From a virus, in the IMG/VR virus record IMGVR_UViG_3300022169_000033, positions 1-23,175 of that record: a DNA stretch of 23,175 nt; one strand, given 5' to 3'. This document shows positions 3,623 through 4,992 of the stretch, one piece after another (within the stretch, counting starts at the first letter, position 1; every line of letters starts with the position of its first letter). The position numbers and the translations under genes were made by a program. The notes under the pieces were generated by a model. The model did no database searches and was not told the DNA's origin. It saw nothing but the letters and a program-made list of their open reading frames with translations.

Positions 3623-4077
3623 TGTCTTACAAGGTATTGAATGACGCTGTTGGCCTTATCCGAGACGAAACCCCAATGTGGGAGGGTAGTTATCAGGAAC
3701 TGCCAGACAAAACCAAAGACGGCCTTATAGCTCTCTGGCTAATCACTCACCAGACTTGGATGGATGACGTATTTCCTCACACAGTTAGCGACAAGCCCTT
3801 ACTGGCCCTAGAGGCTATCTACAGCGAGGACGCTACCTCTAGAATGGCTGCCGCTATGTTCCGCGATGCTGCTGACAGGAACGCTAAAGATGTTGATAAT
3901 GATGCCTACTTGTCGGAGGCTCTGGACGATTTTGAGGACATACTGGATACGCCTGACTTCCTTGAAGAAATTAGACATCAGTTATATATGTATCTTGAGC
4001 CAAGCATGGAAGAGCTTGTAATGGACTCTTATCAGGATTTAATTTATTTAGATAGACTCGTAATGGGGAGCCACTAA
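3622..4077 (+). CDS. Hypothetical acidic protein, 151 aa
   Basis: A strongly acidic 151-residue protein of unknown function. The start is ATG 3622, which overlaps the upstream TAA (TAATG); an in-frame GTG six bases earlier is less likely. The N-terminal part (NDAVGLIRDETPMWEG) leads into a tryptophan-rich LIALWLITHQTWMDD helix; the central and C-terminal parts are dense in Asp/Glu (EALDDFEDILDTPDF, EPSMEELVMDSYQD). No signal peptide or membrane segment is present. Overall acidity and the all-helical look are compatible with a protein that mimics DNA or binds basic partners, but this is only a compositional remark. The stop overlaps the next ATG, coupling it to the 63-aa membrane protein. Confidence 0.65.
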   Translation: MSYKVLNDAVGLIRDETPMWEGSYQELPDKTKDGLIALWLITHQTWMDDVFPHTVSDKPLLALEAIYSEDATSRMAAAMFRDAADRNAKDVDNDAYLSEALDDFEDILDTPDFLEEIRHQLYMYLEPSMEELVMDSYQDLIYLDRLVMGSH

Positions 4078-4268
4078 TGGACGTTAAAACGCTAATTAGA
4101 GACGCTAACAACCACGCTGACAAAGCTATCAGGCGATCAAAGGCTGAGGTTATGGCCAGAAGGTTCAGGGAGTGGCTAGAGGAACCGCTTGTAGTTTACA
4201 GGCTACATCTATTTACCATGACCGCTTTGTTGACCGCTTTTGTTGTTTATGAGGTTATAATTTACTAG
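4077..4268 (+). CDS. Small C-terminally anchored membrane protein, 63 aa
   Basis: 63 residues, starting in a TAATG overlap with the preceding stop. Residues 1-44 are charged and helical (DVKTLIRDANNHADKAIRR, VMARRFREWLEE), and residues ~44-62 form one hydrophobic segment (HLFTMTALLTAFVVYEVIIY) that ends at the C-terminus, giving a tail-anchored topology. Unknown function. Its 3' end contains a promoter-like pair, TTGACC and TATAAT, that fires into the following non-coding region. Together with the 55-aa protein it makes two small membrane proteins in this cassette. Neither has the features needed to call a holin. Confidence 0.6.
   Translation: MDVKTLIRDANNHADKAIRRSKAEVMARRFREWLEEPLVVYRLHLFTMTALLTAFVVYEVIIY
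4230..4261 (+). promoter_or_regulatory. Strong promoter-like element upstream of leader RNA
   Basis: TTGACC at 4230-4235 (five of six to the sigma-70 -35 consensus) and a perfect TATAAT at 4256-4261, separated by 20 bases. The spacing is long compared with the usual 17 but the hexamers are the best pair in this region. The predicted start would be near 4268, exactly where the coding sequence ends and the structured RNA begins. It would drive the roughly 200-nt RNA and, if its terminator is overcome, the late genes. Confidence 0.5.
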
Positions 4269-4467
4269 CCGAGGGTTTCATATTCCCTTCCGATCAGTGT
4301 GATCTACTGTGGCGGTACAGATCAGGCCAAGGTCTCCTTAACCTTTTGACCCAGATTAGTCCACTGGGGAGCTGAAACGGACTACTATTTCCAAGACTCG
4401 TTAAAAGTCGTTGCGAGTCTTACCCCACCCCCTCAGACCGATTTGTACTTGGCTGGGGGGTTTTTTT
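4268..4467 (+). ncRNA. Structured late-leader RNA candidate (lambda 6S RNA-like position)
   Basis: About 200 bases without a supportable gene, packed with inverted repeats: GAGGG 4271-4275 with CCCTT 4285-4289; GATCA 4292-4296 with TGATC 4300-4304; AAGGT 4329-4333 with ACCTT 4341-4345; TAGTCC 4357-4362 with GGACTA 4379-4384; AAGACTCG 4393-4400 with CGAGTCTT 4414-4421; and the terminal terminator hairpin. An alternative pairing, TGATCT 4300-4305 with AGATCA 4319-4324, competes with the second hairpin. A promoter ends seven bases before and an intrinsic terminator closes it. Position between nin-type genes and terminase, plus length, match lambda pR'-6S RNA-tR'. It is not a tRNA. The start point and function are inferred. 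Confidence 0.5.
4429..4467 (+). terminator. Strong intrinsic terminator of the leader RNA
   Basis: CCCCTCAG (4429-4436), a bulged A (4437) and CC (4438-4439) pair with GGCTGGGGGG (4451-4460) around an 11-base loop, giving a ten-pair GC-rich stem (one G-U). It is followed directly by seven T residues (4461-4467). This is a textbook Rho-independent terminator and the strongest in the window. It separates the nin-like/small-gene region from the packaging and structural genes, so read-through control here would set late expression. Confidence 0.88.
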
Positions 4468-4504
4468 GTTTCATAGATTAAACAATGTATATTGCAGTGT
4501 GCAT

Positions 4505-4540
4505 TTTGCATACCATTATTGATATGAATGGTATCGCAAA
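4505..4540. repeat. Long inverted repeat (operator or hairpin)
   Basis: TTTGCATACCATT (4505-4517) and AATGGTATCGCAAA (4527-4540) are reverse complements over 13 positions with a single unpaired C at 4535, around a nine-base AT-rich centre. No T tract follows on either strand, so a terminator is unlikely. The two-fold symmetry, AT-rich centre and location just upstream of promoter-like hexamers suit a binding site for a dimeric regulator. The surrounding 4468-4546 stretch contains no gene. Confidence 0.6.
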
Positions 4541-4546
4541 CAAGCA

Positions 4547-4576
4547 TTTCAAATCATAACTGATCGTCTATACAAT
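4547..4576 (+). promoter_or_regulatory. Promoter-like element upstream of 22-aa peptide
   Basis: TTTCAA at 4547-4552 and TACAAT at 4571-4576 (five of six to TATAAT), 18 bases apart, about 30 bases before the GTG of the small peptide gene. It starts seven bases after the 4505-4540 palindrome, so a protein bound there could control it. The -10 overlaps the 10-mer ACAATGCCGC, which recurs in the next promoter-like unit at 4702-4711. Confidence 0.35.
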
Positions 4577-4608: not shown

Positions 4609-4677
4609 GTGATAATTTACATGATAGTATTTGTAATTCTCTCGCTTGGCGCAGTCGCTGCCGACGATCTTAGCTAG
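4609..4677 (+). CDS. Tiny hydrophobic peptide, 22 aa
   Basis: GTG 4609 to TAG 4675-4677 encodes 22 residues. A strong SD (AAGGGGG, 4596-4602) lies six bases before the GTG, and a promoter-like pair lies upstream. Residues ~2-14 (IIYMIVFVILSLG) are almost entirely hydrophobic, followed by AVAADDLS, which resembles the end of a signal peptide or a membrane peptide with an acidic tail. Size and composition recall small toxic membrane peptides (Ibs type) or leader peptides, but I see no antisense RNA. It lies alone in the 470-base control region between 4269 and 4737. The existence of the gene rests on the SD and peptide character only. Confidence 0.42.
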   Translation: MIIYMIVFVILSLGAVAADDLS

Positions 4678-4706
4678 TTTACATTTTCGTAAAAACCATG
4701 CACAAT
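4678..4706 (+). promoter_or_regulatory. Promoter-like element for the packaging operon
   Basis: TTTACA at 4678-4683 (five of six to TTGACA), 17 bases of spacing, then CACAAT at 4701-4706 (four of six). The -10 overlaps the second copy of ACAATGCCGC (4702-4711), and the start codon of the next gene is 32 bases after the hexamer, with AGGGG in between. This would provide a terminator-independent entry into the packaging genes. Strength is uncertain because the -10 is imperfect. Confidence 0.38.
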
Positions 4707-4737: not shown

Positions 4738-4992
4738 ATGGATAGCTTAAACCTAACTAAATCACTTGAAGATTGCTTTGATTGGGAATTAAATGACGAG
4801 ATAATCCGCTTCGATGCGATTATTGAATCGTTGATGACTACCGATGTCCAAAGGCATAAGATACGAGAAGAGCTTATTGATTGGCAGGATGGCGTTGCTA
4901 ACATGGTCGATGAGCTTTCGGAGCTTGAGCCTTACGAAGGGTTTAAGGAGTTTGCAGCAATGGCAGAAGAGATATTCGGGACTGAGCAATGA
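4738..4992 (+). CDS. Hypothetical acidic protein upstream of terminase, 84 aa
   Basis: 84 residues, strongly acidic and probably all-helical (DWELNDEIIRFDAIIESL, IREELIDWQDGVANMVDELSELEP). I do not recognise a family. An SD (AGGGG at 4727-4731) lies six bases before the ATG. The 3' end overlaps the small-terminase start by four bases (ATGA), so it is translationally coupled to packaging. The gene immediately before terminase in many phages is a small unknown or an endonuclease; no nuclease motif is visible here. An accessory packaging role is possible by position alone. Confidence 0.62.
   Translation: MDSLNLTKSLEDCFDWELNDEIIRFDAIIESLMTTDVQRHKIREELIDWQDGVANMVDELSELEPYEGFKEFAAMAEEIFGTEQ

Follow-up and report, generated by a model that had tools for sequence, protein, structure and literature searches.

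Positions 4268-4384 of the phage DNA analysed here (the window, the 23,175-base IMG/VR virus record IMGVR_UViG_3300022169_000033) encode two head-to-tail copies of one RNA module of 57-64 nt each. The module folds into a three-way junction (P1, P2 and P3) with a pseudoknot (P4) between the P3 loop and the bases immediately 3' of P1. We regard this four-helix fold, pseudoknot included, as practically certain. Defined by covariation among its sequences, the RNA is an undescribed structured family of uncultured phages. By analogy with known RNAs, its leading mechanism (to which we give a probability of a little over one in three) would be mechanical: a compact fold that halts an enzyme travelling 5' to 3'.

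The RNA is retained at the same place by a large uncultured phage group with three types of terminase. Were the proposed barrier true, exonuclease-stopping RNA knots would not be confined to eukaryotic RNA viruses but would extend to phages, and RNA decay could set the timing of early and late phage mRNAs.

The RNA at the early/late gene junction

The features of the locus are collected in Table 1. As the initial annotation had stated, NinB and NinG are encoded upstream of the RNA and the terminase downstream, both TerS and TerL being present in the window. It had also recognised no Q protein, and no Q-type antiterminator appears among the ten window proteins scanned against PHROGs and Pfam. 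The RNA sits directly 3' of the last gene of a transferable NinB/NinG early cassette and closes this same cassette beside three different large terminases (the window type; the type of loci L174, L118 and L222, 29% identical; and the type of L087 and L262).

Table 1. Features of the locus in window coordinates; paired strands of each helix are separated by a slash.
Feature	Position	Strand	Remarks
ORF, 63 aa	4077-4268	+	Single membrane segment, judged by eye
Claimed promoter, TTGACC-20 nt-TATAAT	4230-4261	+	Weak; within ORF 4077-4268
Module A, divergent tandem copy	4268-4324	+	Weak CM matches upstream of the core in relatives
Module A, P1	4268-4270/4311-4313		
Module A, P2	4272-4275/4285-4288		
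Module A, P3	4293-4297/4307-4311		
Module A, P4	4300-4305/4319-4324		
Module B, conserved core	4324-4387	+	CM R1 85 bits; covariation in P1-P4
Module B, P1	4325-4327/4371-4373		
Module B, P2	4329-4333/4341-4345		
Module B, P3	4350-4354/4364-4368		
Module B, P4	4357-4362/4379-4384		
Hairpin C, loop GTTAAAAGTCGTTG	4393-4421	+	z -4.0; seen in terminator-bearing clades
Intrinsic terminator	4427-4467	+	Stem 4427-4461, then T7; -19.1 kcal/mol, z -3.2
Imperfect inverted repeat ACCATTattgatatgAATGGT	4503-4530		Before Pa
Promoter-like Pa: CATTTC, TATACAAT	4545-4576	+	3' of the RNA; similar in many relatives
ORF, 22 aa, GTG start, VIIYMIVFVILSLGAVAADDLS	4609-4677		Between Pa and Pb; one membrane segment by eye
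Promoter-like Pb, TTTACA-17-CACAAT	4678-4706	+	Before ORF 4738-4992
ORF, 84 aa, acidic, FGTE motif near end	4738-4992	+	Usual downstream partner of the RNA

The stop codon (4266-4268) of the ORF preceding the RNA ends on the base with which module A begins, and in relatives, too, the RNA starts where a gene for a small membrane protein ends or close to that point. Where module B occurs alone and the ORF can be scored, the last stop-codon base is the first base of P1 in 32 of 42 contexts; this abutment may simply mirror genome compactness. Some single-module copies (L045, L049, L079, L125, L155, L066 and L262) have a run of 4-6 C just before them, placed between the module and the upstream stop codon or spanning that codon.

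Downstream, the typical order is zero to two ORFs, a terminator-like hairpin (38 of 104 contexts), Pa, a micro-ORF of 22 aa, Pb and the 84-aa ORF. One or two ORFs in the same direction lie 3' of the RNA in L013, L054, L128, L266 and L271, and an ORF of about 58 aa (M[RK]VKIYQLIEQIVEVGAEAGYNRAHKHTDTPD..) is seen between core and terminator in these loci (at 3660-4000 in L013). The motif of the micro-ORF is recognised in 85 of 103 RNA-bearing contexts, a few of them possibly false matches. An HMM places the 84-aa ORF beside 140 of 171 core loci, across the three terminase types, with several of the misses being contig ends or omissions of the ORF caller; the window's copy has no match in PHROGs, Pfam or cultured phages.

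Evidence for the fold

The base alignment for the fold comprised 59 distinct cores. In this alignment 96% of cells are paired vs 88% in shuffled sequence, and 94 cells are changed on both sides vs 30. When partners are slid along the alignment as a control, pairing drops to 22-55%. In addition, RNAalifold, which is unable to draw pseudoknots, independently yields the three-way junction of P1, P2 and P3. The initial annotation had made its structured RNA depend on covariation, and the covariation is strong.

A structure-based parse was extended to 70 distinct cores, including later and more divergent members, among which there are nine P3 stems and nine P1 pairings. It gave 927 Watson-Crick, 43 G-U, no A-C and 10 other cells; because the parser maximises pairing, these counts are a best case, for which shuffling and sliding serve as controls. 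The 43 G-U cells against no A-C cells place the RNA on the + strand, and a DNA cruciform or pac site was rejected because G-U is kept while A-C is absent. Mapped on a TerL tree with 76 tips, the helices show an estimated 37 or so compensatory double changes, 14 of which are U-A/C-G switches of one pseudoknot pair; the count assumes the TerL tree and may be too high if RNA and terminase have recombined. Divergent members that were found with the model, and that lie outside its build, have all of the four helices, P3 and P4 being formed by new sequences. For example, the L229/L222 group has P3 GUAGG/CCUAU with P4 UGGCUC/GAGCUA or UGGCUC/GAGCCA, and the L262/L266 group has P3 CCUGG/CCAGG.

Folding of single sequences misses this structure (minimum free energy z -1.6 for 200 nt and z +1.5 for the core alone). 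A coding region was rejected as an explanation, since the P2 loop varies in length by 1-4 nt and no frame is shared. Stop-codon readthrough was rejected too: CCTTTTGA holds an in-frame TGA, but the frame is unconserved.

Two copies of one module

In core numbering, module B consists of P1 (2-4/48-50), P2 (6-10/18-22), P3 (27-31/41-45) and P4 (34-39, in the P3 loop, with 56-61). Module A came to light as a weak second covariance model match (best E 3e-4) that many loci show immediately 5' of the core. Its 26 distinct copies parse into 321 Watson-Crick, 25 G-U, one A-C and 17 other cells, with a mean parse score of 12.0 vs 1.1 in shuffled sequence, and four types of fully paired P4 occur (UGAUCC/GGAUCA, UUAUCC/GGAUUA, UGAUGC/GCAUCA and UGAUCU/AGAUCA). 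P3 of module A is weak in the window's clade, with two mismatches.

The module accounts for several details that had been noticed in the sequence. The structured RNA that the initial annotation placed before the terminator is indeed conserved and covarying; its 'six or more hairpins' give way to two pseudoknot modules, the hairpin at 4393-4421 and the terminator. The competing pairings it had seen at 4292-4324 are explained: GATC-type repeats there make up P3 of module A and its pseudoknot, P4 (4300-4305 with 4319-4324). CATATT at 4279-4284, taken for a -10-like element, is the P2 loop of the same module.

Both modules share one topology and differ in the sequence of the P2-P3 junction (UUCC-type in A, UUUUGA in B), as would be expected if the fold itself is under selection. 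Many unpaired bases of module B are invariant, a pattern that would fit a binding site for a protein or a ligand just as well.

Distribution and novelty

A search with TerL returned 80 related loci, and most of those with enough upstream sequence have a relative of 4318-4390. Scans with the core pattern (TTTGANNNAGNNTAGYCCACTN{8,16}ACGGRCTA) matched at least 119 stretches in IMG/VR, vs none for a control pattern with two P4 positions changed, and the exact pattern had no match in 84,980 bacterial and archaeal genomes. After further terminase families were added, the core is present at 239 loci, or 106 distinct contexts, of which 50 carry A and B and 56 carry B alone. Each near-complete contig that holds the RNA has one locus. 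Among the records searched for the RNA, 20 of 21 match, the exception being a contig that starts just before TerL.

Rfam 15 gave no match, either at the gathering threshold or at E 10. In a DNA search of 50,697 phage records the 2-kb region matched nothing and the core gave chance matches only. The nearest cultured relatives are the Pelagibacter phages HTVC111P, 202P, 026P, 112P and DSL-LC06, with 51-54% in TerL, and a covariance model search of these phages found no copy. From these relatives we infer that the carrier phages are marine. TerL had no match in bacterial and archaeal genomes, so no host is assigned.

Promoter-like sites, hairpin C and terminator

The initial annotation read the locus as a counterpart of lambda pR'-6S RNA-tR'. 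Two parts of this hold up: the conserved RNA where the early genes give way to the late ones and, in the window, an intrinsic terminator ending in T7 at 4467. The 6S-type unit does not, and was rejected on account of its unconserved promoter, along with a terminator in 38 of 104 contexts, intervening ORFs and promoter-like sites downstream. In particular, the supposed near-consensus promoter has a spacer of 20 nt between TTGACC (4230-4235) and TATAAT (4256-4261). At a spacing of 17 nt the -35 hexamer is ACCGCT (1/6), and a promoter scan with spacers of 16-18 nt did not list the pair. TATAAT forms the last codons of the preceding ORF (..YEVIIY), and an exact TATAAT stands 5' of the RNA in 20 of 106 distinct contexts.

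In the window's clade the claimed promoter would begin the RNA close to 4268. Here TATAAT and the terminator co-occur, which makes an RNA of about 200 nt with its own start (4268-4467) conceivable in this clade. Hairpin C is possibly a second RNA element. By eye, versions with varying stems and similar loops (GTTTAAACGTTTTCTG, GTTAATCGTTTTCTG) occur before the terminators of L036, L125 and L155. Across contexts, 66 of 104 are without a terminator-like hairpin 3' of the RNA, and in several clades whole ORFs lie between RNA and terminator.

Judged by sequence, the likely promoters sit downstream of the RNA, ahead of the late genes. Regular expressions for Pa and Pb match 59 and 67 of 103 contexts, respectively. 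Varied versions of the inverted repeat before Pa are found in relatives, and it may be an operator.

A proposed barrier to 5' to 3' decay and its alternatives

Flaviviral exoribonuclease-resistant RNAs (xrRNAs) contain a three-way junction and a pseudoknot, formed by L3 with the downstream S4, and one of them stops the bacterial RNase J1 in vitro (PMC5760640). In subclass 1b, P1 has 3-4 bp (PMC7527734), a length that P1 of the phage RNA shares. The order of helices, the tandem copies, the placement after a stop codon and the stopping of RNase J1 are why we put a nuclease barrier ahead of other mechanisms. The fold would stop an enzyme moving 5' to 3' on the early mRNA, in the simplest case an RNase J-type 5' to 3' exoribonuclease. 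Decay would consume the upstream ORF after the ribosomes have left it, and the sequence 3' of the modules would persist as a stable RNA. The protected part would be hairpin C and the terminator here, and one or two extra ORFs in other clades, in parallel to the subgenomic RNAs that flaviviral xrRNAs yield. The more specific proposal, that these DNA phages possess an exoribonuclease-resistant RNA of their own, independent of flaviviruses, whose ring-type pseudoknots in tandem halt RNase J where the early operon ends, with a stable phage RNA left over, is tentative and somewhat less probable.

About half as probable as the barrier is an antiterminator like put of phage HK022, in which the nascent module would bind the RNA polymerase transcribing it and let this enzyme read through the 4467 terminator and on into the late genes. 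The site at the early/late junction and the terminator that follows 38 of 104 copies suit this proposal, as does the fact that put RNA, which consists of two stem-loops, antiterminates without phage proteins (PMC9378689); no Q is recognised here. Yet the remaining 66 contexts are without such a hairpin, promoter-like sequences lie downstream, and put has another fold and starts rather than ends early operons. The suggestion in the initial annotation that the RNA itself might be the active part is supported, and its likeness to put is not.

A new self-cleaving ribozyme or metabolite aptamer is unlikely, by a shade more so than antitermination. Such an RNA could well have a compact 60-nt junction with a pseudoknot and the many invariant unpaired bases of module B, and terminators or ORFs bearing ribosome-binding sites come next in some clades. 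However, module A retains the fold without the junction bases of B, the RNA matches none of the known families of ribozymes or riboswitches, and there is no common expression platform.

Close behind, and similarly improbable, comes a trans-acting RNA or decoy released from the mRNA by cleavage, which might, for example, imitate a type III (ToxI-like) antitoxin or titrate an RNA-binding protein of the host. Phage PhiTE, which has pseudo-ToxI repeats, offers a precedent (PMC3475682), and a decoy would share the pseudoknotted modules in tandem, the single locus in each contig and the terminator that comes next in some clades. On the other hand, ToxI units measure 36 nt vs three-way-junction modules of 57-64 nt, 56 of 106 contexts have a single module, and the junction sequences of A and B diverge. 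The neighbouring small ORFs have no match in PHROGs or Pfam, and no toxin gene was identified among them.

The least probable of these readings, a stabiliser of the 3' end or operon boundary that would block 3' to 5' exonucleases or Rho and so protect the upstream early ORFs, agrees with the position directly after the last early stop codon and with the 66 of 104 contexts lacking a terminator-like hairpin, but it is at odds with the same-direction ORFs beyond the RNA in L013, L054, L128, L266 and L271.

Comparison with known systems

The RNA is not classed as an xrRNA, as put, as a 6S-type leader or as ToxI, because it departs from each in at least one of the defining features tested. With lambda pR'-6S RNA-tR' it shares the early/late junction after the nin genes and, in the window, an intrinsic terminator before the late genes. 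A 6S-type leader has a sigma-70 promoter directly upstream and a Q-type antiterminator gene, whereas here there is neither a conserved promoter in front nor a Q. The terminator at the leader's end is present in the window and unconserved (66 of 104 contexts are without it), and conserved pseudoknot modules and downstream promoter-like sites set the locus further apart.

ToxI and the pseudo-ToxI of PhiTE are likewise tandem pseudoknot RNAs, one of them borne by a phage. However, ToxI consists of near-identical repeats of about 36 nt, each an H-type pseudoknot, beside a ToxN-like toxin, whereas the phage RNA is larger and divergent, has one or two copies and is built on a three-way junction.

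As for put, both are phage RNA elements of around 70 nt with two similar copies per genome, and both are thought to act in cis. They differ in fold and position: put comprises two stem-loops near the start of the early operon and has no three-way-junction pseudoknot.

The differences from class 1 xrRNAs lie in sequence and carrier. No sequence similarity was found, there is no match to a curated xrRNA family in Rfam 15, and the carrier is a bacterial DNA phage; among titles and abstracts of the open literature, no description of an xrRNA in phages was found. In xrRNAs, Pk1 pairs the 5' end with the junction and so closes a ring about that end; a Pk1-like pairing (A1-U24/Y0-G25, by eye) is possible in many B modules, where it is invariant, and absent in A. 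The architecture is nevertheless the same: covariation in the phage RNA gives the junction and pseudoknot that define the class, with a short P1, a P2 hairpin and a P3 hairpin whose loop pairs just 3' of P1, and both kinds of RNA are frequently in tandem and placed 3' of a coding region.
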